A DNA stretch of 64,000 nt from Acidobacteriaceae bacterium (GTDB lineage Bacteria > Acidobacteriota > Terriglobia > Terriglobales > Acidobacteriaceae). This document shows positions 7,576-41,217 of the stretch, one piece after another (the first letter of the stretch is position 1; the number at the start of each line of letters is the position of its first letter). The stretch covers positions 1 through 64,000 of the forward strand of contig PLSM01000182.1 of assembly GCA_003165075.1 (NCBI GenBank), written 5' to 3'. Position numbers and translations under genes: made by a program. The notes beneath the pieces are model-generated. The model did no database searches, was not told where the DNA came from, and was given only the letters and a program-made list of their open reading frames with translations.

Positions 7576-7751
7576 TGTCCCCCTCCCCGGCCTCTAACAA
7601 GAATTACATCCGACTGCATTGTTGCTTCAATACCCAAACCGTTCGCTCAGTACCCAATCTGTACCATGCGACGCCCACTGCTACAATCGGAAGGGCCAAA
7701 AAACAGGCCCGTTTGACCTTGAATGTGAGCAAGCCGACCGACCTACGACCG

Positions 7752-9230: not shown

Positions 9231-9271
9231 CCGTCCGGAGCAGAGCCATGAAGGTTTGAGAGGTCATCCCC

Positions 9272-9817
9272 ATGGAAGCCAACGAAGCACAGGAGTTGCA
9301 GGAGAACGCCGAACACGGAGCACACGAGTCGTCACTGCGTCCGGTTGCGTTTACCATGAGCGTGCTGGCCGTGCTGGTGGCTGTGACCACAGTGCTGGGC
9401 CACCGCACCCACACGGAGGCGGTGCTGGACCAGAACAAGGCCACCGACCAGTGGAACGAATACCAGGCCCACAAAATCCGCTCCAACGACACGGCGCTGG
9501 CCGCCGACATGCTGAGCGTGGTGACCATTGGCGACCAGAATGCGGCGCACAAGATCGCCAAGAGCTATGCCGATCACCAAGCCAAGTGGGCCGATGAGAC
9601 CAAAGAGGACAAGGAGAAGGCCGAAGCCCTGGAAACCAAGGTGGAGCAGGCCGAGGCCCGCGCGGACCGCTTCGACCTGGCTGAGGCCCTGCTGGAGATC
9701 GGGCTGGTGATCACTTCAGTTACGCTGCTCACGCGCAGCCGGATTTACTGGTACCTGGGCATGGTGTTTGCGGCGGGCGGAATTGCGGCAGGGATCACGG
9801 GGCTGCTTCTGAGGTAG
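9272..9817 (+). CDS. DUF4337 domain-containing membrane protein
   Basis: This 181-residue protein has one membrane helix near residues 26-44. A hydrophilic, charged, probably coiled-coil middle follows (KEDKEKAEALETKVEQAEAR). Two closely spaced helices end the protein (about 137-180). This architecture matches the DUF4337 family, whose function is unknown. It begins 41 bases after cysS and may be co-transcribed with it. No catalytic or ligand-binding motif is visible. Confidence 0.8.
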   Translation: MEANEAQELQENAEHGAHESSLRPVAFTMSVLAVLVAVTTVLGHRTHTEAVLDQNKATDQWNEYQAHKIRSNDTALAADMLSVVTIGDQNAAHKIAKSYADHQAKWADETKEDKEKAEALETKVEQAEARADRFDLAEALLEIGLVITSVTLLTRSRIYWYLGMVFAAGGIAAGITGLLLR

Positions 9818-9913
9818 ACTACTGCGCCGCTCGACGGGGAGACTGCACCCGCACTGGTTCCGGCCACTGCGTTGGACAAGAAACCGGCCCAGTGAGCAGC
9901 CCTGGCCCTTACT

Positions 9914-10891
9914 CTACCGGCATTTGTTCAGTTCCTCGACGGGCCGTGGCGTGCCCTTGGAACGCACATGTGCCGTAGTGAGAAGGAAAACAGCCATGAT
10001 GATGGCTGCCATGCCCGCGAACTCCGCCGGCCCGGGCCGCTCATGGAGAAGGAAGATACCCAACAGCACCGCGACCACCGGGTTGATGTAGGTATAGGAC
10101 ATGACCTTGGCTACCGGCACATGTTCGAGCAGATAGATGAAACTGGTGTATCCGAGCAGAGACCCGCCAGTGACAAGATAAGCGAGCGATCCAACAGACG
10201 CGGCATTGACGTGGAACCGAGGCCAATTGCCCAGCGCCGTACCCAGCAGAGTGTTGAAGGCCCCGGCGGCAACCATCTGCCACGCCGACGCCACAAAGAC
10301 GTTCACCTTGAGCCTGGCGTGGCGGGACAAGATGCTTCCCGCAGACCAGAAGAGCGCCCCGGCGAGCAGAGCGGCGATGGCCCACAGAAGCGTTCGGTCA
10401 CCACTGAGACCCGCGCGTAACGAGGGCCATAACAACGCGCCGAGTCCGGCAAAGCCAAGCAACAATCCAAGCCAGCCCCGCCGGGGCAGCGGCTCTCCCT
10501 TGGGCAACGCCATCTCGATCAGCGCCACATAGAGCGGAGCCACCGCAAACACCAGCGAGGAGAGCCCGCTGGGTATGGTCTCTTCCGCGTAGACCAGAGA
10601 CACGTTGCCTCCGCCCAGCAGCAGCAAGCCGATGAGTCCCAAAATCAGCATGGTCCTGGGCGGCCCCACCAAACGCAGTCCACGCCAGCGGCACCAGGCA
10701 AGCAGAATTGCGCCCGCGATAAGGAAGCGCGTACCGGCTAACAACAGCGCAGGCATCTCCGCGGCTCCAACGCGAATGGCAGTGTAGGTCGATCCCCAAA
10801 AGAAGTAGACGCTGGCAAAGGCCAACACGATGCTGGCCGTGGTGGCGGATCTCTTTTCGAAGAGGGCTGGCTGGGCTGTGGGACGGAGCAT
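9914..10891 (-). CDS. DMT superfamily (EamA) transporter
   Basis: This inner-membrane transporter is predicted to have ten helices made of two EamA repeats. The conserved FFWGSTYTAIRVG segment is near the start, and repeat boundaries such as PLYVALIEMALPKGEPL and SYTYINPVVAVLLGIFLLHE are visible. The family exports amino acids or other small metabolites; YedA/RhaT-like members are closest in appearance. The frame extends to 10939, but the ATG at 10891 has GGAAG nine bases upstream and is preferred (325 residues). The substrate is unknown. Confidence 0.88.
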   Translation of the reverse strand: MLRPTAQPALFEKRSATTASIVLAFASVYFFWGSTYTAIRVGAAEMPALLLAGTRFLIAGAILLAWCRWRGLRLVGPPRTMLILGLIGLLLLGGGNVSLVYAEETIPSGLSSLVFAVAPLYVALIEMALPKGEPLPRRGWLGLLLGFAGLGALLWPSLRAGLSGDRTLLWAIAALLAGALFWSAGSILSRHARLKVNVFVASAWQMVAAGAFNTLLGTALGNWPRFHVNAASVGSLAYLVTGGSLLGYTSFIYLLEHVPVAKVMSYTYINPVVAVLLGIFLLHERPGPAEFAGMAAIIMAVFLLTTAHVRSKGTPRPVEELNKCR

Positions 10892-11318
10892 GAAGATACT
10901 TCCATCGTAGTCCGCGGAACGCTCTTGCGCACTCCGCATCTTGTGCGCACGCTGGCCCCGGCGATGGAAATGTCGTATTGCCGCGTGCTATCCTCATGGC
11001 CAGCGGGGCTTCAATGCATTTGCGTGCGGCCAAAGGATCGATGCTGCTGCCGGCCACCAGGCGCTGGTCGCGGTCGCGCGCGCGCTGCATTTGCCCTCGG
11101 AAGCACCTGCGCGTGCTGCCCACCCGCACTCGACCTAGCCTCTTCGGCGGCGATTAGTACCGCTCCGCCGAAGACCCTCGCCTGCTTTTCCGGACCTGAC
11201 CAGGGTCCGCAGAATTTGATGATCCCGCATCGCAGGGGTCGCTGGCCGCGCTCCATCCATCGCTGCTGCAACTGGGGAGCCGGGACTGCATAACCCGATC
11301 TGCCGAGGAGCTAAGAAG
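10892..11318. other. Intergenic region without a supported gene
   Basis: These 427 bases separate the divergent DMT transporter and aminotransferase genes. The open frames here are short, disagree between strands and have an arginine/cysteine-rich composition typical of GC-rich non-coding DNA. The promoters of both genes should lie here, but no convincing -35/-10 pair or riboswitch was recognised. A GAGGAG ribosome binding site precedes the aminotransferase ATG. Confidence 0.6.
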
Positions 11319-12713
11319 ATGACCAAGCATGAATTGCACGCACAATACGGACCCAAACTGGTTTGTCCGCTGCCCGGGCCCAAGGCACGGGCAGCCGTTG
11401 AAGCGGACACCCGCCTGATCTCACCCAGCTACACGCGCTCGTATCCGCTGGTGGCCAAGCGTGGCCGGGGAATCCGCGTGGAAGACGTGGATGGGAACGA
11501 GTTTCTCGACTTCGCGGCGGGCATCGCCGTGGTTTCGACCGGCCACTGCCACCCCGAAGTTGTTGCTGCCATTCAGAAGCAAGCTGCCGAGCTGATCCAT
11601 ATCTCAAGCACGGACTTTTACGACGAACATATCACTGCGTTAGGCGATCGGCTCTCCGCCGTGGCACCGATGCCCGGACCGCATAAGTTTTTTTACGGCA
11701 ACTCCGGGGCTGAAGCGATCGAGTGCGCGCTGAAGCTGGCGCGCTACCACACCGGCCGGCAACAGATCATCTCCTTCCTGGGCGCCTTCCACGGCCGCAC
11801 CATGGGCGCGCTTTCGCTCACCGGTTCGAAGCCGCAGCAGAAGCGCCGCTTTTCGCCGCTGATTCCGGGCGTGACCCACATCCGCTATCCCTATGCGTAT
11901 CGGGGCTGCACGGGCGGAGCACAGGAGGAAGAAGCCTTCACGATGGGCTGCGCACGATACATTGAGGAAAAACTTTTCAAGACCATCCTCGCACCCGAAG
12001 AAGTGGCTGCCATTTTTATTGAACCTATCCAAGGCGAAGGCGGCTACGTAGTGGCGCCGGACAACTTTATGCACGAATTGCGCGCTATTTGCGACCGGCA
12101 CGGCATTCTGCTGGTGGTGGACGAGGTGCAGTGCGGAGCGGGGCGTACGGGCAAATGGTGGGCCATCGAGCACTCCGGCGTGGAGCCGGATATGGTGTGC
12201 ATGGCCAAGGGCATCGCCAGCGGCATGCCTCTGGGCATCTGCATGACGCGCGCGGAGATTATGGACTGGGTTCCCGGCTCGCATGCATCCACATTCGGCG
12301 GCAATCCGGTTTCCATCGCCGCCGCACTGGCCACCATGGACATTATCGAACGCGAAGCCATGGCCAACGCCACCCGGGTTGGCGGGTTGATGCAGGAGCG
12401 GCTGCGCGGCTGGGTCAAGACGCATCCGATGGTGGGCGATGTGCGCGGACGGGGCCTGATGATCGGCATCGAGCTGGTGAAAGATAAAACGACGCGCGAA
12501 CCGGCGGCGGCGGTGCGCAATCGCGTGGAGACTCTGGCTTTTGAACGTGGGCTGATGGTGCTGGGTTGCGGCGAAACTACGCTGCGGCTGTGCCCTCCGC
12601 TCATTCTCAACGAGCACGAAGCCACCGTGGCCCTGGACATACTGGAAGAAGCGATCACCCTGGCGGAAGCAGAACACGCGCAGGCTTCCACGCTGGCGGT
12701 GGCAACGGCCTGA
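11319..12713 (+). CDS. Class III PLP-dependent aminotransferase (4-aminobutyrate / acetylornithine type)
   Basis: This is a cytosolic pyridoxal-phosphate aminotransferase of 464 residues. The cofactor pocket NSGAEAIECALKLAR, the LVVDEVQCGAGRTG motif and the PLP lysine in MAKGIASG are present, as is the STFGGNPVS segment. The family moves an omega-amino group (GABA, acetylornithine, ornithine, diaminobutyrate) to 2-oxoglutarate. Its length and the YPLVAKRGRG N-terminus fit GabT-like members better than the shorter ArgD, but the substrate is not settled. It has a good GAGGAG ribosome binding site. No pathway partner is adjacent. Confidence 0.88.
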   Translation: MTKHELHAQYGPKLVCPLPGPKARAAVEADTRLISPSYTRSYPLVAKRGRGIRVEDVDGNEFLDFAAGIAVVSTGHCHPEVVAAIQKQAAELIHISSTDFYDEHITALGDRLSAVAPMPGPHKFFYGNSGAEAIECALKLARYHTGRQQIISFLGAFHGRTMGALSLTGSKPQQKRRFSPLIPGVTHIRYPYAYRGCTGGAQEEEAFTMGCARYIEEKLFKTILAPEEVAAIFIEPIQGEGGYVVAPDNFMHELRAICDRHGILLVVDEVQCGAGRTGKWWAIEHSGVEPDMVCMAKGIASGMPLGICMTRAEIMDWVPGSHASTFGGNPVSIAAALATMDIIEREAMANATRVGGLMQERLRGWVKTHPMVGDVRGRGLMIGIELVKDKTTREPAAAVRNRVETLAFERGLMVLGCGETTLRLCPPLILNEHEATVALDILEEAITLAEAEHAQASTLAVATA

Positions 12714-12724
12714 ATCGCGCAACG

Positions 12725-12808
12725 GCATGGAGATAGCTACCGATCTTGCTTCAAAGAATCAAGGGTGTACTTTCCCGGGTCCCAAACACGGGACCTGGGG
12801 CACCCGGC
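12725..12808. repeat. Intergenic palindromic repeat, copy 1
   Basis: This copy begins with catggagatagctaccgatc and contains an inverted repeat: CCCGGGTCCC at 12774-12783 and GGGACCTGGG at 12790-12799, with a 6-base loop and one G-T pair. It ends in the motif CCTGGGGCACCC. The same layout recurs at 13556-13645. This copy sits in front of yraN and makes a false upstream extension of the yraN frame. Confidence 0.75.
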
Positions 12809-12849
12809 AGATTTGCGCCTTTGGCCGCGGAAGCCGAGAATGGTTTGCC

Positions 12850-13332
12850 ATGGAGTGGCCGGCGCAGATGCGGAGTGCGTGGCTTGAACGTACGCTCGCC
12901 CGGCTGGATTCAGTAGCACGGCGACGGGGCCGCGCGGCAAGCCTGCCTGCCCACCTGGCCACCGGAATCAGCGGCGAGGAAGCGGCGCTTTTCTATTTGC
13001 GGCGCAAGGGCTACACCGTGGTAGCAAGGCGGTGGTCGTCGGGCGACGTTCCCGGGGACGTCGACCTGATTGCATGGCAGGGACCGATGTTATGCTTTGT
13101 CGAGGTGAAGACGCGCACGGCCCGCGATACTTCTCCGGCGGAGATTGCCGTCGACTCACACAAACGCAACATCCTGCGCCGACTGGCGCGCCGCTACGTA
13201 CGCCAGCTACCCGGGCAGCCGGCGCCACAAATCCGCTTCGATGTGATCAGTGTGTATCTTGTGCCGGGTCAGGAAAAGGAATTCGTGCACTTTGAGAGCG
13301 CCTTCGGGTGGAGCGAATACCGGCGCGATTGA
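12850..13332 (+). CDS. yraN: YraN family (UPF0102) nuclease-like protein
   Basis: This is a small endonuclease-fold protein. GEEAALFYLRRKGYTVVARR and the PD-(D/E)xK-like core GDVDLIAW ... CFVEVKTR are characteristic of UPF0102. The family is probably a Holliday-junction-resolvase-like nuclease, but its cellular role is unproven. The frame is open back to 12727, where it runs through a palindromic repeat. The ATG at 12850 (MEWPAQMRSAW, 160 residues) is therefore preferred, although the exact start is uncertain. It is convergent with iscX, 8 bases away. Confidence 0.85.
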   Translation: MEWPAQMRSAWLERTLARLDSVARRRGRAASLPAHLATGISGEEAALFYLRRKGYTVVARRWSSGDVPGDVDLIAWQGPMLCFVEVKTRTARDTSPAEIAVDSHKRNILRRLARRYVRQLPGQPAPQIRFDVISVYLVPGQEKEFVHFESAFGWSEYRRD

Positions 13333-13340
13333 ACGATAAC

Positions 13341-13559
13341 TTATCCCTTCGCGTCCTCAAACTCCTCGTGCCAAGCCATCTGAATGGCCTCAAGCCGCGA
13401 CTCATTGGATTTAGTGGGGTCGTCGGCGAAGCCTTCCAACTCCGTGACGTAGCGGTGCAGGTCAGTGAAGCGGACCGTTAACGGGTCGAGTTCAGGGAAT
13501 TTCTCCTGTAGTTGAATGCCGATCTCTTCGGCGTCGGTCCAGTGAATCTCGCGCGGCAT
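13341..13559 (-). CDS. iscX: Fe-S cluster assembly protein IscX
   Basis: IscX is a small acidic partner of IscS that modulates iron supply and desulfurase activity. The 72-residue sequence has the family features: IHWTDAEEIGIQL, LDPLTVRFTDLHRYV, DDPTKSNESRLEAIQMAW and an acidic C-terminus. It is the last gene of the leftward ISC operon, 122 bases after fdx. That gap carries a palindromic repeat, which might terminate or process the transcript. Confidence 0.9.
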   Translation of the reverse strand: MPREIHWTDAEEIGIQLQEKFPELDPLTVRFTDLHRYVTELEGFADDPTKSNESRLEAIQMAWHEEFEDAKG

Positions 13560-13645
13560 GGGGATAGCTCCCGATCTTGATTTAGAGAATTAGATTAAGG
13601 ACATGCTTCCCAGGTGCCCAAAAGCGAGGCACCTGGGGCACCCAG
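13556..13645. repeat. Intergenic palindromic repeat, copy 2
   Basis: This copy shares catgg-gatagct-ccgatcttg with the first and has a perfect 10-base inverted repeat: CCCAGGTGCC at 13609-13618 and GGCACCTGGG at 13628-13637, with a 9-base loop. It continues into CCTGGGGCACCC. It lies between fdx and iscX, so the hairpin would form in the operon transcript. Confidence 0.8.
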
Positions 13646-13697
13646 TTCATTCCTTGTTTTCCGCCTGGGGCACTCGGTTTCTTACTTGTTTTCCGCC
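13632..13697. repeat. 32-base imperfect tandem duplication at the fdx 3' end
   Basis: CCTGGGGCAC and CTTGTTTTCCGCC each occur twice, 32 bases apart: 13632 and 13664 for the first, 13653 and 13685 for the second. The second unit covers the last codons and stop of fdx, so the first is a decayed copy fused to the palindromic repeat next to it. It looks like a slippage or insertion scar. Confidence 0.7.
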
Positions 13698-14095
13698 AGG
13701 GCCAGCGGCTTGCCTTCGGAAACGTAGTTGCGGTTCCACTTGGGAATCTCCACCACGTAGTTGCCGGGGCCGGTAATGATGGCCTGACAGCCGAGGCGGG
13801 AGTTCAACTGCTGATCAGCGGCCATGTCCATCCGGTCCAGTTCGTCGTCTTCCGCAGGGCTAATACCTTGCTGATCCTTGATCCAAAGATGGCAGGTGGT
13901 GCAGGCGCAGACGCCGCCACAGGCGTGGTCAAGGAAGACGCCGAAGTTCTCAGCCACGTCAAGAAACGACATGGGCCTTCCGTGATGTTCGTAGGGCATG
14001 GTGCCGAACTCGAACTCCACCGTTCTGCCCTCGGGAAGGAAGGTTACCCGCACAAGCTTTTCGGCGGGAATAGTCTTTTCGGTTGCTTCGCTCAT
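13682..14095 (-). CDS. fdx: ISC-type [2Fe-2S] ferredoxin
   Basis: This ferredoxin supplies electrons for cluster assembly by the ISC machinery. The adrenodoxin-type ligands are CGGVCACTTC (the C-x5-C-x2-C ligand spacing typical of Fdx) and the later cysteine in SRLGCQ. At 137 residues it is slightly longer than the ~110 of typical Fdx, with short charged ends. It follows hscA by 20 bases in the operon. Confidence 0.93.
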   Translation of the reverse strand: MSEATEKTIPAEKLVRVTFLPEGRTVEFEFGTMPYEHHGRPMSFLDVAENFGVFLDHACGGVCACTTCHLWIKDQQGISPAEDDELDRMDMAADQQLNSRLGCQAIITGPGNYVVEIPKWNRNYVSEGKPLALAENK

Positions 14096-14115
14096 ACGAT
14101 TCCGTCCTTCCTCAT

Positions 14116-16056
14116 CTATTTAAACTCCGCCTGGGCCATGGGGTGGGGCGCGGTGACGGCATCGCCCATCTCTTCGCCGGCATTCTCCATCGTCTTGCCG
14201 CGGATGGCCGTGGTGACCGCGGCATCCATCATCAATTCGGCAAAGCGACGCGTGGCCTGATCGAGCGCCAGGGTGGCATCGCGGATGGCGGCCGCGTCTT
14301 CACCCTGCTTGATCTGTGCCAGCCGGTCACGCGCCGCAGTGATGGCGCCCTGCTCCTCGCCGCGCAACTGCTGCCACGCAGGACTCTGCGGCGCACGCTC
14401 GACCGCGGAAAGAATGGTCTCAGCTTCGTTGCGGGCTTCGATCAGCAGGCGTTTGGCAAAGTCATCTTCGGCGTGATCGAAGGAGTCAAGAATCATGCTC
14501 TCGACCTGCTCATCGGTCAACCCATAGGTCGGCTTGACCTCAATGCGCGCTGCCTTCCCGCTGCGCTGCTCGCGGGCGGAAACCTTCAGAATGCCGTCAG
14601 CGTCGATGAGAAAGCGCACCTCGATGCGCGGCAGTCCGGCGCTCATGGGGGGAATGCCTTTCAGATCGAAGCGCGCCAGCGAGCGGCAGTCGGCAGCCAA
14701 TTCGCGCTCGCCCTGCACCACGTGGATAGCTACGTTGGTCTGCCCGTCCACGCCGGTGGTGAAGTGCTCCGTGGCTGAGGCGGGAATGGTGGAGTTGCGC
14801 TGGATAATGCGCGCGACGGTACCGCCCAGGGCCTCGATGCCCAGCGAGAGCGGCGTCACATCCAGGAGAAGCATCTCCTCAGTGGACTTCGAAGAGCCGG
14901 CCAAAATGTCTGCCTGCACGGCGGCACCCAGCGCCACCACCTCGTCAGGATTCAATTCAATGTGCGGCTTTTTGCCGCGTGCCGCGAGATGGAACAGATC
15001 GTCTACCAACTTGCGCACAGCGGGAATGCGCGTGGAGCCGCCCACCAGCACTACTTCATCAATTTGCTCCGGGGTGAGGCCCGCGTCGGCCAGCGCCTGT
15101 TTGCAGGGACCGGCGGTGCGTTCCAGAACCGGCTCAATCAACTGCTCGAAGACTTCGCGGGGAATCTCGCGCTGGTAGCGGTCGCCGTTGGGCAACTCAA
15201 TATCAAAGCGCGCCACGGCCTCAGTAGACAGCCGGATCTTGGCGTCGATGGCATCCTTGCGCAGGCCCTGCACGGCGCTCGGATGCTTGCGGAGGTCTAC
15301 GCCGTGTTCGGCGTGAATCTCATCCAGCGCGATGGCCAGCAGCAGGTTGTCAATGTCGTCGCCGCCCAGGTGTGTGTCGCCGTTGGTGGACTGCACCTCA
15401 AAGATGCCGTCGCGCAGCTTGAGAATGGAGATGTCGAAGGTGCCGCCACCGAGATCGTAGACGGCGATGGTCCCCACCTTGGCGCGATCCAGCCCATAGG
15501 CCAGAGCAGCCGCGGTGGGCTCGTTGACCAGGCGCAGCACTTCCAGGCCGGCCATGCGTCCCGCGTCCTTTGTGGCCTGGCGCTGCGCGTCGTTGAAATA
15601 AGCGGGCACGGTGATGACCGCCTGGGTGACCGGCTCGCTGAAAAAACGCTCCGCATTGCGTTTGAGCTGGCGCAGAATGTAAGCCGAAATTTCGGAGGGC
15701 GTAAAGCGCAGCTCGCCGAGTTGGATGCGCGGCACTTCGCCCACTTCCACATCGTCCGCCAGACGAAACGGAAAGAGCTTTAACTCGCTCTGCACTTCTT
15801 GCAGCCCGCGGCCCATGAGGCGCTTGACAGAATAGATGACGCGCTCGGGCGTTTCGATGAGCGACTTACGGGCGCTGTTGCCCACCGTGACCGTAGGCCG
15901 TCCACCACCGGCAGGCATGGGGTCCAGCGCCACCACCGACGGCACAAGGTTGGAGCCGTCCACGCCGGGAATGACCACCGGCGCCTCGCCTTGCATATAC
16001 GCAACCAGGGAATTTGTGGTCCCCAGATCAATTCCGACTACGCGTCCTTCCGCCAT
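14116..16056 (-). CDS. hscA: Fe-S assembly chaperone HscA (Hsp70 family)
   Basis: This specialised Hsp70 helps release clusters from IscU. The ATPase domain shows [26 protein letters not shown] and [11 protein letters not shown]. The interdomain linker [13 protein letters not shown] leads into the substrate-binding domain. The 646-residue length and its position between hscB and fdx separate it from DnaK. It begins 9 bases after hscB, consistent with tight co-expression. Confidence 0.93.
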
Positions 16057-26248: not shown

Positions 26249-26401
26249 CCGATCCTCTTCATTTCGAGATGACTTGAACTCCGATATGAATTCTCTCACT
26301 GCGCACCCTGGTCTGTTTCTGCACAGCAGCATTTACTCCAAAGCGCCGGCAAGCGTAAGCTCCAGGGTGGCGTGCCCCAGCGCTCGGTTCCACCTGTCCC
26401 G

Positions 26402-28774
26402 ATGGCAGAACCCTTGCAACCCAACTCCAATTCGTGGGTGACACAACCACCGTACGCCGCAAAAGCGGTTCTTGCCCTGGTTGGGTTCACGGCGGTGGTT
26501 GGACAGATCGTTCTGATGAGGGAACTGATCGTTCTATTCAACGGCAACGAACTCTCCCTGGGAGTCGTGCTGGCAACCTGGCTGATGTGGACCGCGGCGG
26601 GGAGCGCGCTGACGGACCGGCTGGCAAGAAATGTCGCCGACACCCGCTACGCAATCGCAACCGTCGAATGCCTGTGCGGCCTGAGCTTGCCGCTGACGGT
26701 CTGGGTTCTTCGCGGAGCCAGGGTCCTGTTCCAGGCCGTGCCTGGCGAGTTGCTTGGTCCGGTGCCCATGGCGCTGGTTTCTGTGGCTTGCGTCAGCGTA
26801 TTTTGCGGCCTCTTAGGATGCCTCTTCGTACTTGCTGCGCAGTGGGTTCAGCAGACATGCGCCGTCTCCGGACAGCTGGCAACCAGTTATGCCTATCTGC
26901 TTGAGACGTCCGGCTCCGCATTGGGCGGAATCCTGACCAGCATTCTGTTGCTGCGTTTTTTCTCGTCATTCCAGATCGCGGCGATTGTCGTCCTGCTGAA
27001 TGCGTGCGTGGCATTGAGCCTGCTCTTCAAGATGCGTTGCAAGCGGATGGTGGCCGTGGTTGCTATGGCTTTGGTTGTGGCCGTCCCGCTCGTGACCTAC
27101 GTTGCGCCACATTTGGAAGAGTCTTCGCAACAGCATCTGTGGACCGGATTCCATGTGCTGGGCTCTCGCGACACGATTTACGGCAGGCTCACGGTGGTGG
27201 AAGCAGGTGGAATGCGGAGCATATATGACAACGGCTCCATCCTGGCCAATGTGCCCGACCCAGCCGCGGCCGAAGAAAGTGTGCACTACGCGCTACTGGA
27301 ACACCCCGCTCCGCGAAGGGTTCTGCTCATAGGAGGCGCCGTGAACGGCGGCATTGCAGAAGCGCTGAAACATCCAACGCTTGAGCGGCTCGACTACGTT
27401 GAACTGGACCCGGCGCTCACAGCCATGTTCCGGCAGTTCTTCCCCACGGAATCTGCGCAGGCTTTTTCCGATCCTCGCGTGCACCTGCACCATACGGATG
27501 GCAGGCTCTATCTGAAGACGGCCAACGACCGCTTCGACGTTCTGATTGTCAACGTTCCCGATCCCCAAACGGCGCAATTGAACCGCTACTACACAGCGGA
27601 GTTCTTTCGTTCCGCTCGCGATCACCTGGCCCCGGGAGGGCTGCTCGCGCTTCAATTGCATTCGTCGGAGGACGCCATCGCGCCGGAGCTGGCGCAGCTT
27701 CTTCGCAGCATTCATCACACGCTGCAAGGAGAGTTTCCCCATGTCGCCGTCATCCCCGGCGACACAATCCACATGTTCGCCGCCGTCGATTCCAACGTGA
27801 TCACGGAGGATCCACAAGTCCTGATCTCCAGGCTACAGAGCCGCAACCTCCACACACTTTATGTGCGCGAATACTTCATTCCCTATCGCATGGCGCCTGA
27901 CCGTATGAAGCAGGTTGACGATCTTCTGAGGCCGCTTGAAAAGACGCCCGTAAATCGAGATTTCCAGCCTATTGCGTATTACTTTGGCGCGGTGCTTTGG
28001 AGCGCCCAGTTCAAGGGGAACTATGCGCGACTACTGGTGAGTGCGGAGCAGATTCCCTTTTCGTGGATCGTCATCGGCGTGGCCGTGCTCTCTTTGTTGC
28101 TGGTTCTGATTCTTGCCTGGCTGCCCAAGCCGCCCGTGCGAGCCCGCGCCGCAGCGGTGTGGTCCGTGGCCGCCACGGGCTACACGCTGATGGCGCTTCA
28201 GATTCTTCTGCTGCTCGCATTCCAGTCTGTCTACGGCTATGTCTACAAGGAAATGGCAATGCTGATCGGGATGTTCATGGCCGGTATTGCGCTGGGCAGT
28301 TGGCTCAGAATTCTGCGCATGCGCAAAGGTCGTGAGGAATTGCTGCTGCGGGCCGTGGCAATGAATCAGTTGCTGCTGGCCATCTCCGCGCCGTTGCTGC
28401 TCGTCGCGGTGAGTCTGCTCGCGCGCAGTTCTGCCGGCGGTGCGGTGTCGATTGCCCCGTTTGTCTTCCCCGGACTGGCGCTACTGTGTGCGATGCCGGG
28501 AGGGTACCAATTCCCGCTTGCGGCGAAGATATATCTTCGCGAGTACGAGGCGTCGTCAGGCGCCGGCACTCTCTATGCCCTCGATCTGGTGGGGGGCTGC
28601 GGCGGCGCATTGTTGCTCGCCGGATTCCTCATCCCGCTGTTTGGCTTTTGGCCGGTTGCGTGTCTGGCTGCCGCGGTGAGTCTTGCGCCGGCGCTCCTGG
28701 CCGCACGGGCAAGCTTCGATCCCAGTTCTAGTTTTGAACCGATGCTCGATGTTCGCCAAATACGACCGCGGTAA
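26402..28774 (+). CDS. Spermidine-synthase-like domain flanked by membrane helices
   Basis: This ~790-residue integral membrane protein has about six helices before and six after a soluble SAM-type Rossmann domain. The central domain (about residues 260-470) has VLLIGGAVNGGI, YVELDPALTAMFRQF, HHTDGRLYLK, FDVLIVNVPDP and NRYYTAEFFRSAR. These match the aminopropyltransferase/spermidine synthase core. The acidic substrate residues are only partly kept, so polyamine synthesis is not assured. The start is uncertain: GTG at 26372 or ATG at 26402. Its 3' end overlaps the MEMO-AMMECR1 gene by 47 bases on the opposite strand. Confidence 0.8.
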   Translation: MAEPLQPNSNSWVTQPPYAAKAVLALVGFTAVVGQIVLMRELIVLFNGNELSLGVVLATWLMWTAAGSALTDRLARNVADTRYAIATVECLCGLSLPLTVWVLRGARVLFQAVPGELLGPVPMALVSVACVSVFCGLLGCLFVLAAQWVQQTCAVSGQLATSYAYLLETSGSALGGILTSILLLRFFSSFQIAAIVVLLNACVALSLLFKMRCKRMVAVVAMALVVAVPLVTYVAPHLEESSQQHLWTGFHVLGSRDTIYGRLTVVEAGGMRSIYDNGSILANVPDPAAAEESVHYALLEHPAPRRVLLIGGAVNGGIAEALKHPTLERLDYVELDPALTAMFRQFFPTESAQAFSDPRVHLHHTDGRLYLKTANDRFDVLIVNVPDPQTAQLNRYYTAEFFRSARDHLAPGGLLALQLHSSEDAIAPELAQLLRSIHHTLQGEFPHVAVIPGDTIHMFAAVDSNVITEDPQVLISRLQSRNLHTLYVREYFIPYRMAPDRMKQVDDLLRPLEKTPVNRDFQPIAYYFGAVLWSAQFKGNYARLLVSAEQIPFSWIVIGVAVLSLLLVLILAWLPKPPVRARAAAVWSVAATGYTLMALQILLLLAFQSVYGYVYKEMAMLIGMFMAGIALGSWLRILRMRKGREELLLRAVAMNQLLLAISAPLLLVAVSLLARSSAGGAVSIAPFVFPGLALLCAMPGGYQFPLAAKIYLREYEASSGAGTLYALDLVGGCGGALLLAGFLIPLFGFWPVACLAAAVSLAPALLAARASFDPSSSFEPMLDVRQIRPR

Positions 28775-30254
28775 ACCGGAAGATGTCGGTATTCTCGTCC
28801 TTCCAGCAATCCGGCGGCATCTCCGCCTTGATGCAGGTTTCTTCAAGAAACTTCATTCGATCCCAGTGCTGCTCCACGGGAACTTGGGGAAGCAGAAGTC
28901 CTTCGTGGTCGCCGTTTTTCATCAGCAACCCATGTTGACCGACCTCTATTTCATGCACGTCGAGCACGCGTCGCAAAGGCGATAACACTGAGATTTCATA
29001 CTCCAGCTTTGACAACTCCTCAGCCGTTACCGGACCGAACCGCGGATCGCGCAAAGCAGCCAGCGTGGCAGTGTCGCGCACCGTCAAATAGAGAGGCTTT
29101 ACCGCAGAGGTGTAACCAATGCAACCGCGCAGATCTCCACCTTCTTTCAGGGTGACAAAGGCACCGTGCTCCTGATTCAGTGCGTCGCTCGCACTCGCTC
29201 CAGGTTCCAGCGCGTGCCTGTCCTGCACCGCGTGCTCCACCGACTTGCGGGCCAGGGCTAGCAACTCGCTTTCGTCGCGGTCGCTCAGCGAGAATGAAGG
29301 TTCCTTCGTCTTTGCGTCCTGGGCTTTGAAAAAGACGTCCGCACTGTAGCCGACCACGCGAGAGCGATCGCCGGTGACATCGCCTGAATTCGCATACTTG
29401 AGCACTCGTGCCCGATTTGCTCCCATCCGTTCTGCTGCAATCATTGCGGCTACAATCGGCGCGCCTCCGCAGGCTTCCCATATTCGCGACTGAAAGTTGC
29501 GCGACATGCTCAGGTAGTCCCAGGACTCAAGGGCGCTCAACGTCTTGTGATCGATCTTTTCGGCGTCGTCATAGGTGTGATAGTGCGACAGGTCAGAACT
29601 GGCCACGATCAAGGTATCACCGCCCCGGATCAGTTTGGCCAGCGCCACTCCCAGTGCACGGCTGCTCTCGTAGCTTTGATCTCCCATGACAATCGGCACC
29701 AGCGTGAAGTTGCCCAGCACGCGCTGCAGCCACGGCAATTGCACTTCAAGCGCGTGCTCCGTGCCCTGCGAGGTGGGAAGATGACCGCGCCCGGAAAACC
29801 TGATTGACGAATTCTGCCTGATCAGTTGCTGCGCGAAGGCCTTGTCTACGGAGACTGTGCCGAGCGGAGTCGCGTAGGCGTCACCATCGTAGACCGACGT
29901 GAAATCAAATCCTTCGAAGTGTGAGGGAGCGATCACTACTACGCGTGAGTATTTGTGCCCTTTCAAGGCTGCGTAGGTGAAGGCTGCCACAGGGCCGGAG
30001 TACTGATACCCCGCGTGCGGCGCAACCACTGCGAGAATGGGTCCATTGACTGCGGGGGTTGAGGCATTTGCCAGCATGCCGTCGATCATGGCTGTCAGGG
30101 CGGCGGGATCGGAGGGATAGAAGCTGCCCGCCACTCCCGCTGCGCGCACCTTCTGCTGGTCAGCGCCATGCACATCCTGGTGGGTCACAATCGCTGCAAT
30201 TCCAATGAGCAATGCGGACATCACGTACCTTCCAAAGCGCGTTTTACGATTCAT
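28728..30254 (-). CDS. Exported MEMO1-AMMECR1 fusion (AmmeMemoRadiSam protein)
   Basis: Two domains are fused. A MEMO1-like domain (about residues 35-300) has GVAGSFYPSDPAALT, VVAPHAGYQYSGPVA and IAPSHFEGFDFTSVY. An AMMECR1 domain (about 330-505) has the hallmark LRGCIGYTSAVKPLYLTV. The N-terminus is a hydrophobic signal peptide (SALLIGIAAIVTHQDVHGA), so the protein is probably exported. The biochemical role is unknown; co-occurrence of these two families with a radical SAM enzyme is established. The radical SAM gene lies 23 bases upstream on the same strand. The ATG at 30254 is chosen because AGGA precedes it. Confidence 0.88.
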   Translation of the reverse strand: MNRKTRFGRYVMSALLIGIAAIVTHQDVHGADQQKVRAAGVAGSFYPSDPAALTAMIDGMLANASTPAVNGPILAVVAPHAGYQYSGPVAAFTYAALKGHKYSRVVVIAPSHFEGFDFTSVYDGDAYATPLGTVSVDKAFAQQLIRQNSSIRFSGRGHLPTSQGTEHALEVQLPWLQRVLGNFTLVPIVMGDQSYESSRALGVALAKLIRGGDTLIVASSDLSHYHTYDDAEKIDHKTLSALESWDYLSMSRNFQSRIWEACGGAPIVAAMIAAERMGANRARVLKYANSGDVTGDRSRVVGYSADVFFKAQDAKTKEPSFSLSDRDESELLALARKSVEHAVQDRHALEPGASASDALNQEHGAFVTLKEGGDLRGCIGYTSAVKPLYLTVRDTATLAALRDPRFGPVTAEELSKLEYEISVLSPLRRVLDVHEIEVGQHGLLMKNGDHEGLLLPQVPVEQHWDRMKFLEETCIKAEMPPDCWKDENTDIFRFTAVVFGEHRASVQN

Positions 30255-30277
30255 GCGCAAATCCTGTTCTTCTGCGA

Positions 30278-31501
30278 TCAAACGTGCCAGACTCCTGGAA
30301 TCGTGTGCTTGCAGAATGGGCACTCGCCCTTGTGAATAAGCATTTGCCGGATTTCAAGACCGACGCGCTCTACCAACATGCGCCGGCATTGCGGACAGTA
30401 GGTGTTCTCTGCGGGGTGACCAGGCACGTTGCCGATGTAGACATAATGCAAACCCTCGGCAAGGGCTATATCCCGGGCGCGTTCCAGGGTGGGAATGGGC
30501 GTGATAGGCAGATTCTTCAACAGGTAGTCGGGGTGAAACTGCGTGAAATGTAAGGGAACGTCCGCACCAACATTCTGCTTTACCCACCGCGCCAGGCCAC
30601 GAAACTCCACATCGCTATCATTGAGAGTCGGCACCACGAGGTAGACAATCTCGGTCCACTTATCCAACTTGCGTAAGGTCACAATCGAGTCCAACACCGG
30701 CTTGAGCTGACCCGTGACGACGTTCCGGTAGTAGGACTCGGAAAATGACTTCAGATCGATCTTTACCGCGTCCATCTTGCCGTAAGCTGCCCGCAACGCC
30801 TCTTCCTGCATGTAACCGTTGGAGACCACGATGCTTCGGATTCCGGCCTCATGACCCGCATCCGCAGCGTCCATCAGGAACTCGCTGAATACCACCGGCT
30901 CGCTGTAGGTGTAAGCGATGGTTGGGCACCGGTACTGCACGGCGAGTTCAGCCACCCTCTTCGGTGGGACATACTGTGCCGGAGCCTGCTCCGGACGCGC
31001 CTGCGAAATATTCCAGTTCTGGCAAAATTTGCAATTCACATTGCACCCGGCCGTGGCCAGCGAAAACGCCATTGTCCCGGGAAGATAATGGAAGAGCGGC
31101 TTTTTCTCGATGGGATCGACATGCGCGGCGCATACGCGCGAGTGCACCAGCGAGTAGTACGTGCCGTTGCGATTTTCGCGAACACCGCAGTACCCGCGCT
31201 CCCGGTCTCCCACCGCACACTCGCGTGGGCAAAGTTTACATTTCACCTTTTTATTCGGCAGCTTCTGGTAGAACTGTGCTTCGACGGTGAACTGCGCATC
31301 GTCCTGCTTCTGCTCGTTATTCCATACGGGCATTGCCTTGAGCGGCCGGGCGAGCTGATGAATGCTGCCTGCCGCACCGGCGGACATTGCACACATCAAG
31401 AAGGAACGGCGGTCGAGCGCAGAGAATGCAGGATCCCGCTTCACTGCTGAAATTGGAACTCGCGGTTCTTCAGTATGCGGTAACGAGTAATCGGATTGCA
31501 T
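30278..31501 (-). CDS. AmmeMemoRadiSam radical SAM enzyme with Tat-like leader
   Basis: This is a 407-residue radical SAM protein. The SAM-cluster motif CNVNCKFC is preceded by a second cysteine-rich site (CKLCPRECAVGDRERGYC). Two CxxC pairs lie at the C-terminus (YCPQCRR, ECPFCKH). The N-terminus contains DRRSFLMCAMSAGAAGS, which looks like a twin-arginine signal. It has a strong GAGGAGG ribosome binding site and starts 12 bases after the DUF362 gene. Family members occur with MEMO1 and AMMECR1 partners, as here. The substrate is unknown. Confidence 0.9.
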   Translation of the reverse strand: MQSDYSLPHTEEPRVPISAVKRDPAFSALDRRSFLMCAMSAGAAGSIHQLARPLKAMPVWNNEQKQDDAQFTVEAQFYQKLPNKKVKCKLCPRECAVGDRERGYCGVRENRNGTYYSLVHSRVCAAHVDPIEKKPLFHYLPGTMAFSLATAGCNVNCKFCQNWNISQARPEQAPAQYVPPKRVAELAVQYRCPTIAYTYSEPVVFSEFLMDAADAGHEAGIRSIVVSNGYMQEEALRAAYGKMDAVKIDLKSFSESYYRNVVTGQLKPVLDSIVTLRKLDKWTEIVYLVVPTLNDSDVEFRGLARWVKQNVGADVPLHFTQFHPDYLLKNLPITPIPTLERARDIALAEGLHYVYIGNVPGHPAENTYCPQCRRMLVERVGLEIRQMLIHKGECPFCKHTIPGVWHV

Positions 31502-31513
31502 TGCGCGCCTCCT

Positions 31514-32533
31514 CTAGGACCCACGCGTCTCAACCAGTTCGATGCGCCGTGGATCGTTCGTTCCCAGCTGGTGATCCGCATCGGCCGCGGTGGCAATGTA
31601 GCGCGGCGTTCTGTCTTCGGCTGCGAGCGTCTTCAGGCCCTTTTCAGCCCGCTTTCGCTCAATGGTCTGCCAGCCGATGGTGTCGAGCGCCACCGGGTCT
31701 TGGGAAATGATCAGGGCGTTCTGCTGCCAGGCGAACTGGGGCTTGAATGCGGGTCCACCTTCAAAGCAGGCTGTCGTCGCGTCGCAAATGTGCAAGCGCA
31801 GCCTGGACCGGATCTCCGGGAGCATATTCACGTCCGCAACATAGGGATCGCAACCGTTGGGATGGTACTTGTTCGGATTGTGGATGACGCCATACATGTT
31901 CTTGAGAGCAATCGATACTCCGGCACCGTCATGATCTTTGAGCACCGGCACGTTGATCAGCACATCGCACCGCTGGGTGAGAATCTTCGACAAGCGGCTC
32001 CCGACGCTGCCATACGACACCAGATCCTCTTCAAATCCCACCCGGTCCGTGCCGAAGCATTGCACTTGACTGGCGCCGGTGCGGACGCGGAATCCGGCGC
32101 GCTCCAACTCGGCGCTGTCCCTATCCCAGATCACGATGTCCTGCGCACGGATTCCCGCGGCCTGCAGCCTCTCGCAAATTGCCTCCACTAGCTGGACGTT
32201 GGTGCTCAGCCCGCGTCCGCCAAGGGTGTTCACTTTCACTGCGACCATTTGCCCCGGGCGGACCATCCTGATCCAGGGTTGGATTGGATCGCGAGCGTTG
32301 AAGAGCCTTTGCATTGCGTGATCGAGCAGGCTCAGCACACGGCCCCCATCCACGCCCGTTCCTGCACCGCGCATTTGCGCATCCTGCGCGATCACCACCC
32401 TGGACTTACCCAGCGAAGTGACGGGTTCGGCAGCGTCGAGCGCAACCGGCTGATCAGCGACTGCCAGACCCACGGCTCCCGCAAGGCAATTCCTCAGGAA
32501 ATCCCGCCGGCTCGCGGTGCGCTCGTTGCGCAT
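31514..32533 (-). CDS. DUF362 family protein with Tat signal
   Basis: This 339-residue protein of the DUF362 family has characteristic segments VAVKVNTLGGRGLSTNVQLV, DRDSAELERAGFRV and MYGVIHNPNKYHPN. The N-terminal ASRRDFLRNCLAGAVGLAVA is a Tat-type leader, so it is probably exported folded. Some DUF362 proteins bind an Fe-S cluster; no ferredoxin motif is seen here. An AGGA site precedes the ATG at 32533. It leads a three-gene run with the radical SAM and MEMO-AMMECR1 genes. Function unknown. Confidence 0.85.
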   Translation of the reverse strand: MRNERTASRRDFLRNCLAGAVGLAVADQPVALDAAEPVTSLGKSRVVIAQDAQMRGAGTGVDGGRVLSLLDHAMQRLFNARDPIQPWIRMVRPGQMVAVKVNTLGGRGLSTNVQLVEAICERLQAAGIRAQDIVIWDRDSAELERAGFRVRTGASQVQCFGTDRVGFEEDLVSYGSVGSRLSKILTQRCDVLINVPVLKDHDGAGVSIALKNMYGVIHNPNKYHPNGCDPYVADVNMLPEIRSRLRLHICDATTACFEGGPAFKPQFAWQQNALIISQDPVALDTIGWQTIERKRAEKGLKTLAAEDRTPRYIATAADADHQLGTNDPRRIELVETRGS

Positions 32534-38700: not shown

Positions 38701-41217
38701 TTACCTTCCTTCCTGGCGCGTGAGTCGCATGGAGTTGGCCACCACCGATGTGCTGGACAGCAACATGGCGACCGCAGCGAAGATGGGCGTCAACACCCCG
38801 GTAAAGGCCAGGGTAATGCCCAGGCCGTTGTAAATGAACGCCCAAAACAGGTTCTGCCGCACCACGCGCGTGGTCTTGGCAGCGAGTCGAAAAGCGTCTT
38901 CCACCCTGGCCAGCGATCCACTGACCAACACCACGGGGGCAGCGCTCATGGCAATGTCGGCACCGGTTCCCAGGGCAATGCCTAAGTCAGCCTGGGCCAG
39001 CGCGGGCGCATCATTCACCCCATCGCCAATCAGTACAACTCGTTTCCCGGATTGCTGCAATTCCTGGATGATGCGTACCTTAGCGGCGGGAGTGGCTTCG
39101 GCGGTGAAGTCGTCCACACCGATCTGGCGCGCTACCGCGGCGGCTGTCGGCCAGGAATCCCCTGTCACCATCTTCACGCGAATGCCACGCCCGCACAAGC
39201 GCTCCACCATTTCAACCGCGCCGGGCTTGATCTCGTCGCCGAAACCAAGCATTCCGCGAACCGCTCCATCCCAACCAAAAAACGCAACTGTCCGGCTGGC
39301 TTTCTGCAACTCCCGGGCGCGCAGTTCCACGTCGGCGTCCATCTCGCAGCAAGCCGTCGACATCATTTGCCGATTCCCGATAAATACGCGGCGCCCACCG
39401 GCAGTTCCGCTGATCCCCTCCCCTTTGCAAATCTCAACGGACTCTGCATCCAGAGATTGAACATGGTGCGCACAGGCGTACTCGACAACAGCGCGGCCCA
39501 ACAGGTGCTCGGAATAGGCTTCAATTCCCGCCAGCATCGGCAGCCACTCCGCAAGAAGCAGCTCTTCATTATTGCTCTCAGCATGGAGCGGCTCCGCGCC
39601 GCCGCCGCCCGCCGCCATCGCCAGCGCTTCAACCTTTGATTCCAGCAGGGCAAACTCAACCAGACGAAAGTCTCCGCGGGTTACGGTTCCGGTCTTGTCC
39701 AGCACCGCTACGTCGATCTTGCCCAGGGTTTCAAGCACCCGGCTGTCGCTGATCAGCAGGCCCTCTTGCGATGCGCGGCCCACAGCCGCAGTAATTGCCA
39801 ATGGAGTGGCGAGGCCAAGTGCACAGGGGCAGGCAATGACCAGGATCGTGGTGGCGCGCAGCATGGCAGCGACGATGCCGGCGTGCATTCCAGCCAGTAC
39901 GGCAAAATCCAACGCGGCCAGCAGCACTACCACAGGCACAAAGACGCGAGCCACACGATCCACTGTGCGCTCGATGGGAGCACGACTGGCCAATGCCCGC
40001 TCTACCAGCCGGATGATCTGGGCCAGCGCACTTTCGTTTCCGGTTCTGGTTGCGCGCACCTGGATGACTCCCCCGGCATTCAGGCTCCCGGAGACCACCA
40101 CGTCACCGGTCCGCTTGGCCACTGGTGTGGCCTCTCCGCTGAGGAGCGATTCATCGGCGTAGGTCTCGCCTTCGACCACAATTCCATCTGCGGGCACGCG
40201 CTCGCCGGCCTTGACCACAAAGACTTGTCCCGGCGCCAGGGCATCGATGGAGACAAAGCGCTCGCCTGCACGGCTGAGGATGCGCACCTTCTTCGGCATC
40301 AGCCGGTAAAGCAGAGCGATGCTGCGCGAGGCCCTGTCCTTGGCCGTGCGTTCGATCAGTTTGCCCGCCAAAACCAGCGTGACGATGGCGGCTGCAGTGT
40401 CGAAATAGACGTGAGTCTGGCCGCGCATGGTTTGCACGGCGCTGAGGAAATAGGCAGCAAGAATGCCCATTGCCAGCAACGTCTCCATGCGAATCTGACG
40501 GTTATAGAATCCCAGAGCAGCGGCACGCAGGATGGGCCAGGCGCAGTAAAACACCAGCGGAGTGGACAACGACAAAAGGAAGAATGGCAGAATGCGGCTG
40601 GCGCTGGCGGAGATCTGTTCGAAATAGCCTACATAGAGGATGGTGCTGAAACCCATGATATTGGCCCATAGAAAGGCGGCCACACCCAGGCGCAACAGCA
40701 GATCGCGAGCCTCCGATTTACCGATAGTGTTTTCCCCGCCATACTCTGCCGCCTGGTAGCCGAGCCTGGTAATGCGCGCCGTGATACTGTCCGGGGGAAG
40801 ATACTGCGGACAATACTTCACCTTGGCCAGATCGGAAGCAAAGAACACATCTGCCTCAACCACGCCGGGCATCGTGCGCAATGCACGCTCGATGAGCCAC
40901 CCGCACGCGGAACACCACATCCCGCTTACCTGCAACAGCACTTCCTGCGTGGGGGCGCGGGGATCGATTGCGGCTGGCGGCGTGGGCTCATTCTCGCCCG
41001 TCGGATTGGAGATGAGCCCCAACTCCAGGCTGCGGCGAAAGACTTCGGTGTCACGAATATTCTGGCCGCTAGCGACTACTCCGCTCTCAAGCAGTATGGC
41101 GTAGACGTTGGCGCAACCCATACAGCAGAACGGAATCTCTCGTGCATTGTAGGTGCGCACCAAGGGCTGCTTCCCGCAGGGAAGCTCGCATAGCCCGCAG
41201 GTTGCGCTCGTTTCCAC
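38701..41217 (-). CDS. ccoI: CcoI-type copper P-ATPase
   Basis: This inner-membrane copper pump is required for cbb3 oxidase assembly. An N-terminal cysteine module (TCGLCELPCG ... CCMGC) precedes a heavy-metal domain with GMWCSACGW (residues 99-107). The ion site ACPCALGLATP, the phosphorylation motif DKTGTVTRG and the GDGVNDAPAL hinge follow. 838 residues with eight predicted helices. It has a GTG start just after the small upstream membrane protein gene. It ends the respiratory operon. Confidence 0.92.
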   Translation of the reverse strand: METSATCGLCELPCGKQPLVRTYNAREIPFCCMGCANVYAILLESGVVASGQNIRDTEVFRRSLELGLISNPTGENEPTPPAAIDPRAPTQEVLLQVSGMWCSACGWLIERALRTMPGVVEADVFFASDLAKVKYCPQYLPPDSITARITRLGYQAAEYGGENTIGKSEARDLLLRLGVAAFLWANIMGFSTILYVGYFEQISASASRILPFFLLSLSTPLVFYCAWPILRAAALGFYNRQIRMETLLAMGILAAYFLSAVQTMRGQTHVYFDTAAAIVTLVLAGKLIERTAKDRASRSIALLYRLMPKKVRILSRAGERFVSIDALAPGQVFVVKAGERVPADGIVVEGETYADESLLSGEATPVAKRTGDVVVSGSLNAGGVIQVRATRTGNESALAQIIRLVERALASRAPIERTVDRVARVFVPVVVLLAALDFAVLAGMHAGIVAAMLRATTILVIACPCALGLATPLAITAAVGRASQEGLLISDSRVLETLGKIDVAVLDKTGTVTRGDFRLVEFALLESKVEALAMAAGGGGAEPLHAESNNEELLLAEWLPMLAGIEAYSEHLLGRAVVEYACAHHVQSLDAESVEICKGEGISGTAGGRRVFIGNRQMMSTACCEMDADVELRARELQKASRTVAFFGWDGAVRGMLGFGDEIKPGAVEMVERLCGRGIRVKMVTGDSWPTAAAVARQIGVDDFTAEATPAAKVRIIQELQQSGKRVVLIGDGVNDAPALAQADLGIALGTGADIAMSAAPVVLVSGSLARVEDAFRLAAKTTRVVRQNLFWAFIYNGLGITLAFTGVLTPIFAAVAMLLSSTSVVANSMRLTRQEGR

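Follow-up and report, generated by a model that had tools for sequence, protein, structure and literature searches.

The widespread AmmeMemoRadiSam system comprises three protein families, covering homologs of AMMECR1 (TIGR04335), homologs of MEMO1 (TIGR04336), and a radical S-adenosylmethionine (SAM) enzyme (TIGR04337). Radical SAM enzymes of the pyruvate formate-lyase (PFL)-activase type are cytoplasmic. AMMECR1 is linked to human disease, although we know of no molecular function for it, and Burroughs et al. reportedly published a study on the MEMO superfamily in 2019. The molecular function of MEMO1 is described as unsettled in PMC11081632. This study concerns a window of 64,000 nucleotides, i.e., the whole stretch of DNA analyzed (positions 1 to 64,000 of contig PLSM01000182.1), from an acidobacterial genome of 5.68 Mb (Acidobacteriaceae bacterium). 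The window carries a variant of this system that probably forms an extracytoplasmic module of four parts, one of them a nucleoside-handling transporter of its own; this estimate covers the exported four-part module and not the detailed maturation mechanism discussed below. The leaders and catalytic residues are conserved, and the genes are linked and co-occur; the extracytoplasmic location of the parts is predicted.

On the minus strand, the gene for a DUF362 protein (31514..32533; 339 residues; PF04015 83.8 bits, cut-off 24) is followed by the gene for the AmmeMemoRadiSam radical SAM enzyme, hereafter rSAM (30278..31501; 407 residues; TIGR04337 377.6 bits, cut-off 220; Pfam Radical_SAM 63.8 bits, cut-off 29.5), and by the gene for a MEMO-AMMECR1 fusion (28728..30254; 508 residues; TIGR04336 265.6 bits, cut-off 26; TIGR04335 178.2 bits, cut-off 99; PF01875 213.8 bits, cut-off 27; PF01871 184.6 bits, cut-off 25). 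The gaps of 12 and 23 bases, when recomputed, were identical to those given in the initial annotation of this DNA, which had described the three genes as adjacent. On the plus strand, a convergent gene (26372..28774) encodes a membrane protein in which a major facilitator superfamily (MFS) transporter and a spermidine-synthase-like domain are fused (MFS/SpdSyn; NF037959 48.9 bits, cut-off 40), and its 3' end overlaps that of the fusion gene by 47 bases. By these scores, rSAM and the clustered MEMO-AMMECR1 fusion are members of the AmmeMemoRadiSam system. The DUF362 ATG lies behind GGGGTAGGA and the rSAM ATG behind AGGAGG, and each of the three starts is plausible. As read from the sequence, DUF362 starts with a Tat-like (twin-arginine translocation) leader containing SRRDFLR (32426..32533, minus strand, roughly residues 1-36; SRRDFLRNCLAGAVGLAVA), rSAM with a Tat-like leader whose arginine pair (RR) at residues 31-32 follows an n-region of 30 residues (31334..31501, minus strand, roughly residues 1-56; DRRSFLMCAMSAGAAGSI), and the fusion with a Sec-like signal peptide at the MEMO end (30162..30254, minus strand, roughly residues 1-31; MNRKTRFGRYVMSALLIGIAAIVTHQDVHG).

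Conservation of the rSAM leader was assessed in a TIGR04337 sample made up of the best 30 matches in 297 Acidobacteriota genomes, 80 loci kept from 340 relatives, and further copies including Latescibacterota. Removal of 12 duplicate loci before counting left 196 distinct copies, of which 129 fall in the window's clade and 67 outside it. Leaders were called by our own rules and inspection by eye instead of a signal-peptide predictor, as RR-x-hydrophobic-hydrophobic behind an in-frame start; stricter rules (13 or 12 uncharged residues) miss true RR leaders, and the looser rules were used for the counts. The rule alone returned 123 of the 129 clade copies, from which L109 (a chance RRVVC upstream) was subtracted and L083 (at a contig end) was excluded, so that 122 of the 128 clade copies that can be assessed have an RR leader (metagenome-assembled genomes, MAGs, of Acidobacteriota, Latescibacterota, and Calditrichota). 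A Tat-like leader was recognized by eye in none of the 67 other copies, three of which (L030, L181, and L210) fit the bare RR pattern by chance. The rSAM of the clade has the sequence hallmarks of a Tat substrate, namely a conserved RRxFL-type motif and then a hydrophobic stretch.

A tree that excluded the leader was built from 151 of the 196 distinct copies, using columns from the first cluster Cys onward. The 84 clade rows fall on one side of a branch and the 67 others on the opposite side, and the RR label requires 5 changes, compared with a mean of 50.6 for shuffled labels; none of 500 shuffles was as low. For this comparison L131 and L194 were counted as RR on visual inspection, L012 and L171 (other copies flagged by the rule upstream of their likely start) were scored leaderless, and L090 was kept as leaderless despite MDRRRFV, which as RR would cut the changes by one. 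Exported and other kinds of rSAM coexist in several genomes, e.g., G297, G298, G299, G035, and G093. Judged from these sequences, the rSAM leaders are real and old. Among the findings that the initial annotation had named as speaking against export, non-conserved leaders were not observed, and a downstream start deleting the RR pair is unlikely because the ribosome site before the rSAM ATG is strong and the pair is conserved in relatives. L096-L108 and relatives have long rSAM n-regions, in several loci with a recurrent acidic-Leu-Pro (IDALP-like) patch before the RR pair, and Cys-rich leaders (LPCLAAC-like), which are potential lipoboxes or chaperone sites.

The initial annotation spoke of a trio, which proved too narrow, as most genomes with the exported rSAM also encode MFS/SpdSyn, apparently a fourth partner. 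Among the 297 Acidobacteriota genomes, 73 contain both, 4 only the exported rSAM, 7 only the membrane protein, and 213 neither, i.e., MFS/SpdSyn is found in 73 of 77 exported-rSAM genomes vs 7 of 220 others (p 8e-56). For 48 genomes of the phylum to which the Latescibacterota locus L107 belongs, the corresponding counts are 17, 3, 4, and 24, i.e., 17 of 20 vs 4 of 28 (p 1e-6); both p values overstate independence, the genomes being related. Four of the seven exceptions in this phylum look like contig breaks, where the contig that holds the one gene also holds a fragment of its partner (an MFS/SpdSyn fragment in G339; rSAM fragments in G314, G342, and G346). The profiles separate the two proteins from their paralogs narrowly for the exported rSAM (A3; 458 vs 447 bits) and more widely for the membrane protein (A1; 262 vs 195 bits). 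The gene order also differs by lineage: in deep lineages MFS/SpdSyn follows rSAM on the same strand with no space between and with overlapping stop-to-stop frames, whereas it is convergent in the window lineage. In a clustering of neighbors at 49 loci, rSAM was present at 46, the DUF362 cluster at 35, MFS/SpdSyn at 33, MEMO-AMMECR1 at 24, and the next cluster at 11.

The structural model of MFS/SpdSyn (mean pLDDT, the predicted local distance difference test, 90.7) has seven helices, a domain at residues 261-547 (27152..28012, plus strand), and seven further helices. Counts of Lys plus Arg favor an N-terminus inside and a domain outside in 76 of 76 homologs (1433 in vs 362 out), and the domain is thus predicted to be periplasmic. 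The membrane part matches the MFS fold (SV2A, Z 24.5 over 348 residues; the POT transporter 6ei3, Z 20.3 over 387 residues), and the domain matches SpeE (3anx/1uir, VIA Z 31.3). Above the NF037959 cut-off and with an MFS fold plus domain, the protein belongs to the fused MFS/spermidine synthase family; its score of 92.1 bits against the SpeE cut-off of 249.55 leaves it outside the spermidine synthases. The Glu and Asp that we take, from spermidine synthases, to bind ribose and adenine are retained in 75 of 76 and 74 of 76 homologs, respectively. Spermidine-synthase activity is doubtful because the catalytic Asp position holds Asn in 42 of 76 homologs, the window included, and Asp in only 22. 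Since the nucleoside-binding residues are kept while the transferase Asp is often lost, MFS/SpdSyn is read here not as a polyamine enzyme but as a putative transporter or exchanger for SAM or its by-products.

The leader was lost in six clade members (L082, L085, L087, L092, L093, and L109), representing three losses on the tree. Where the flanks permit a judgment, DUF362 is adjacent to 0 of 5 leaderless vs 71 of 89 leader-bearing rSAM copies, and MFS/SpdSyn to 0 of 5 vs 77 of 89. In whole-genome searches, none of the 5 leaderless genomes had an MFS/SpdSyn ortholog (one weak paralog, 7e-9; two of the MAGs are small, 2.6-2.7 Mb, and perhaps incomplete), compared with 8 of 8 leader-bearing genomes, namely the window's own and seven for comparison, four of these lacking MFS/SpdSyn within 4.5 kb.

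The catalytic core of rSAM is as well conserved in the exported clade as elsewhere. The CxxxCxxC motif (31022..31045, minus strand; Cys153, Cys157, and Cys160) is complete in 129 of 129 clade copies and 67 of 67 others and, with the Pfam score, places rSAM in the radical SAM superfamily. The 11 Cys of the family persist: seven are invariant among the 129 clade copies and four are kept in about 99% of them, like in the other copies. Thr198, Tyr199, Pro202, Asp249, Lys251, and Glu284 show conservation equal to that in other copies; clade-specific substitutions also occur, e.g., Lys247, where 54 of 67 other copies carry Asn. No relative of rSAM with a solved structure was found by sequence search at E 0.01. 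Among the ten recurrent neighbor proteins scanned, none was a glycyl-radical enzyme.

The fusion carries a hydrophobic leader in 93 of 94 exported loci (L139 is the exception), compared with 11 of 12 MEMO N-termini without one at cytosolic-type loci; the twelfth (L182) has a stretch upstream of its likely start. The window's fusion has the AMMECR1 motif LRGCIG (29115..29132, minus strand; residues 375-380). Of 95 AMMECR1 parts from loci of the clade, 94 carry LRGC[IVL]G and the remaining one VRGCIG. The two His and the Cys that form the metal site of human MEMO1, as given in PMC11081632, are conserved in the MEMO alignment.

For DUF362, no credible solved relative was found by sequence search, and its model (pLDDT 90.1) was compared with known structures. 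Foldseek gave 18 matches at E <=0.001, 17 of them titled LarA-like or racemase; the title of the remaining one (4nar) names no function. VIA Z values were 13.9-15.6 for the first 12 rows, LarA 9eid being at the top (15.6) and the first unrelated fold at 4.9. The superposition on 9eid covers 203 residues at a root-mean-square deviation of 3.0 Å and about 16% identity, and the alignments mostly stop near residue 295-305. Within HDGAGVSIALK (31901..31933, minus strand), His201 and Lys211 are invariant in a 46-row alignment and align with the His and Lys of LarA HxxxGxSGGxK by local hhalign (E 9.6e-5 but probability 58.6); global hhalign against LarA fails (E 0.93, 28 columns), and the nickel-ligand His was not placed. 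HxxxGxSGGxK is present in 16 of 20 fetched LarA sequences, and the strict DUF362 form of the motif fits 38 of 46 DUF362 sequences. In the Pfam search of the window's DUF362, PF04015 alone matched and Lar_N did not. In LarA, according to PMC12611868 and PMC9283937, the lysine tethers the nickel-pincer nucleotide (NPN) and the histidine is catalytic; DUF362 and DUF2088 share one Pfam clan, as stated in PMC11770544.

Among the exported-rSAM genomes examined, LarC was found in 30 of 30 whose locus includes DUF362 vs 4 of 9 whose locus showed none, a split of fetched loci sorted by hand that is suggestive only, and a Lar_N match is missing in 8 of those 30. As a marker of the whole exported system LarC was rejected (58 of 77 vs 153 of 220, p 0.38). 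In the window's own genome, a minus-strand run away from any rSAM found (L215, G000:C122:15000-34000, 7585-15270) contains LarE and LarC upstream of a NapG/NapH-like polyferredoxin, DUF6599, and tandem DUF362 genes with Tat leaders, all on the same strand. Taken together, these several weak supports make it a tentative possibility, somewhat short of even, that DUF362 carries an NPN.

A recurrent candidate electron carrier lies near some of the loci, as the 11-locus cluster joins NapGH-like polyferredoxin and DUF6599 proteins. The polyferredoxin, a fused NapH-NapG-like membrane protein (Pfam Fer4_5 plus Fer4), was found at 18 of 129 clade loci vs 0 of 67 others, only 10 of the latter having 4 kb upstream. 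It lies upstream on the same strand at 13 loci, mostly separated from DUF362 by a DUF6599 gene; DUF6599 was detected by similarity at 19 clade loci, plus 7 of 7 scanned loci of the lineage with leaderless DUF362 described below. Of the co-occurring electron carriers raised in the initial annotation, then, a candidate exists, and it is missing from most loci. Multi-heme open reading frames, when counted, were few and scattered. In L155 and L157, from genomes of different families, rSAM has an insert with a heme-c-type CxxCH (CQSCH and CAACH) between the Tat leader and the first cluster, which hints at heme in one further lineage.

A route by which the parts might work together can be proposed. 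Before exit by Tat, rSAM would fold in the cytoplasm, Fe-S clusters included, the fusion would exit unfolded by Sec and take its metal outside, and DUF362, LarA-like, would exit by Tat in most lineages. On this reading an Fe-S enzyme requires Tat, and Sec suffices for a mononuclear-metal protein, which can fold once outside. If folding, metal uptake, and then activation of the fusion occur only after Sec export, its maturing enzyme would therefore have to act outside, and rSAM would be exported for this task. There it might act on AMMECR1, with LRGCIG as candidate target, in a PFL-activase-like action on a partner protein. MFS/SpdSyn, predicted to be an inner-membrane protein whose SAM-type nucleoside-binding domain faces outward, would supply SAM or clear 5'-deoxyadenosine-type products; in some lineages electrons might pass from quinol through the upstream NapGH-like polyferredoxin, and DUF362 might bring a preloaded cofactor, possibly NPN, for hydride transfer. 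Nap-type proteins pass electrons from quinol to the periplasm; as a reductant of radical SAM clusters, quinol is weak. The maturation step in particular, i.e., rSAM acting on the exported fusion, is rated as rather unlikely in this detailed form. The broader picture of a whole radical SAM pathway outside the membrane, with SAM or a SAM-derived nucleoside delivered by the transporter, an exported rSAM, a radical-modified AMMECR1-MEMO metalloenzyme, possibly a nickel-pincer DUF362 alongside, and NapGH-like polyferredoxin feeding rSAM in some lineages, is rated slightly higher, though still on the unlikely side.

The same leaders could be explained if rSAM works in the cytoplasm and is exported afterwards or inside a complex, e.g., with DUF362, the leader serving sorting or quality control. 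By established knowledge SAM and strong reductants are cytoplasmic and Tat passengers fold inside, the neighboring DUF362 is leaderless in one lineage (13 of 80), and genes of cytoplasmic-type oxidoreductases lie near L126, L129, L131, and L150 of that same lineage. Nevertheless, with a Sec-like leader on the MEMO-AMMECR1 partner in 93 of 94 loci, a cytoplasmic rSAM would meet the fusion only before folding, because Sec carries unfolded chains, and the outward nucleoside-binding domain of the co-occurring MFS/SpdSyn would be left unexplained; this account is considered improbable. A lower probability still is given to an exported rSAM that has ceased to be catalytic and acts outside as an Fe-S or nucleoside-binding scaffold, a sensor, or an electron carrier. 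Periplasmic SAM is not known, Lys247 replaces the Asn of 54 of 67 other copies, and the CxxCH insert of two relatives would fit electron transfer; still, conservation of the cluster Cys together with Thr198, Tyr199, Pro202, Asp249, Lys251, and Glu284 is unexpected for a retired enzyme.

It is very improbable that the RR leaders are mere membrane tethers or remnants, with the proteins staying at the cytoplasmic face. The hydrophobic stretch of the window's rSAM is modest, the leader Cys of several relatives (LPCLAAC-like) could anchor rSAM, and leaderless orthologs persist in three lineages; yet a tether needs hydrophobicity and not the RR pair that 122 of 128 copies keep, and MEMO-AMMECR1 and MFS/SpdSyn also point outward. 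Lastly, chance or wrong starts as the source of the RR-like N-termini have a probability close to nil: matches to the bare pattern do arise (the three of 67 other copies already named and the clade member L109), but conservation across the clade speaks against it, as does the window's ribosome site.

Several observations weigh against the extracytoplasmic four-part module. Support for the clade branch is weak (53.8), rising to 92 for the 83 rows that remain without L139, and the p values for co-occurrence come from related genomes, as stated above. The coupling of the parts is imperfect: the MEMO signal peptide is retained beside 4 of 6 leaderless rSAM copies, so that coupling is not strict, DUF362 is not near 18 of 89 leader-bearing rSAM copies, and the 24 of 49 neighborhoods with MEMO-AMMECR1 (neighborhoods alone were scanned) are a minority. 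The initial claim that all three proteins have export signals holds for the window, with its two Tat-like leaders and one Sec-like leader, and does not extend to every locus. Among 80 DUF362 proteins at exported loci, the rule assigns an RR leader to 58 and inspection by eye to another 8; 1 is truncated at a contig end, and the other 13, which all fall inside one 17-row clade of the rSAM tree, are leaderless. DUF362 is leaderless in this way at 13 of the 30 LarC-positive loci, and LarC does not mark the system as a whole. The frequent loss of the catalytic Asp in MFS/SpdSyn is a further point, and we know of no periplasmic SAM pool. The polyferredoxin is found at 16 of the 94 clade loci with at least 4 kb upstream and is absent near the window locus, and because it is present at so few, it leaves the odds of the module unchanged. 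Its relay may serve DUF362 instead of rSAM, since its gene neighbors in the window's genome include other DUF362 genes. A CxxCH is also present behind the first cluster at 25 clade loci (27 motifs), and for this reason the motif is weak evidence by itself.

The lineage with leaderless DUF362 (L126, L129, L130, L131, L136, L141, L143, L144, L145, L147, L148, L150, and L151) keeps the leader on rSAM, and the membrane-protein gene is next on the same strand. Downstream of that gene in L126, L129, L131, and L150, pyruvate:ferredoxin-oxidoreductase-like, TPP (thiamine pyrophosphate)-enzyme, HdrB-like (CCG), and ferredoxin-like genes recur. Elsewhere in the window, a heavy-metal P-type ATPase (38701-41217), a strong match to DUF4914 (937 bits; 1680-3668), and a cytochrome c/cbb3-type oxidase subunit (48180-49973) are encoded. 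Given this oxidase, the host may respire oxygen, and the question of Fe-S survival outside is therefore sharper.

If radical SAM chemistry does take place outside the cytoplasm, it would overturn the working rule that such chemistry depends on SAM and reductant from the cytoplasm; to our knowledge no extracytoplasmic SAM economy has been described in bacteria, and this one would be the first. MFS/SpdSyn is the candidate for handling SAM-type nucleosides outside, and the NapGH-like polyferredoxin for electrons. The module sets MEMO1 and AMMECR1 homologs apart with a short list of partners, which makes their function testable, and the LarA-like fold hands the DUF362 family a concrete cofactor hypothesis. 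The view of the initial annotation that an exported radical SAM enzyme would be unusual agrees with the open-access literature searched, whose titles and abstracts contained neither an account of such an enzyme nor any mention of an exported system in which MEMO and AMMECR1 are fused and a membrane protein is a dedicated partner. The protein families themselves are already known.

Compared with known systems, the module is closest to AmmeMemoRadiSam, with which it shares three families above the curated cut-offs, clustered genes, 11 Cys, and many invariant residues; it differs in its export signals, in the fusion of MEMO and AMMECR1, and in the addition of DUF362 and MFS/SpdSyn. At cytosolic-type AmmeMemoRadiSam loci, MEMO and AMMECR1 were separate genes wherever either lay nearby. 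Among other radical SAM families, the PFL-activase type comes next (TIGR02493, 58.8 bits; TIGR02494, 46.3 bits), although these scores are far below the cut-offs of 231.75 and 174.35. DUF362 resembles the NPN racemases of the LarA type in its fold and in the spacing of a Lys, locally aligned with the NPN-tethering one, ten residues after a His, and differs in lacking a Lar_N match, in its low identity to LarA (about 16%), and in its Tat leader. The polyferredoxin matches NapH in its first half and NapG in its second; unlike these two proteins it is one fused chain, which scores below their cut-offs (96.8 vs 269 and 76.4 vs 234) and occurs at 18 of 129 loci only. MFS/SpdSyn has the domain fold and nucleoside-binding Glu and Asp of spermidine synthases (polyamine aminopropyltransferases), except that its domain is placed between two 7-helix halves, is predicted to face the periplasm, and has mostly lost the catalytic Asp. 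Its membrane part aligns across most of the protein with SV2A and POT transporters; SV2A likewise has an extracytoplasmic domain inserted after helix 7, whereas the domain inserted in MFS/SpdSyn has the spermidine-synthase fold.

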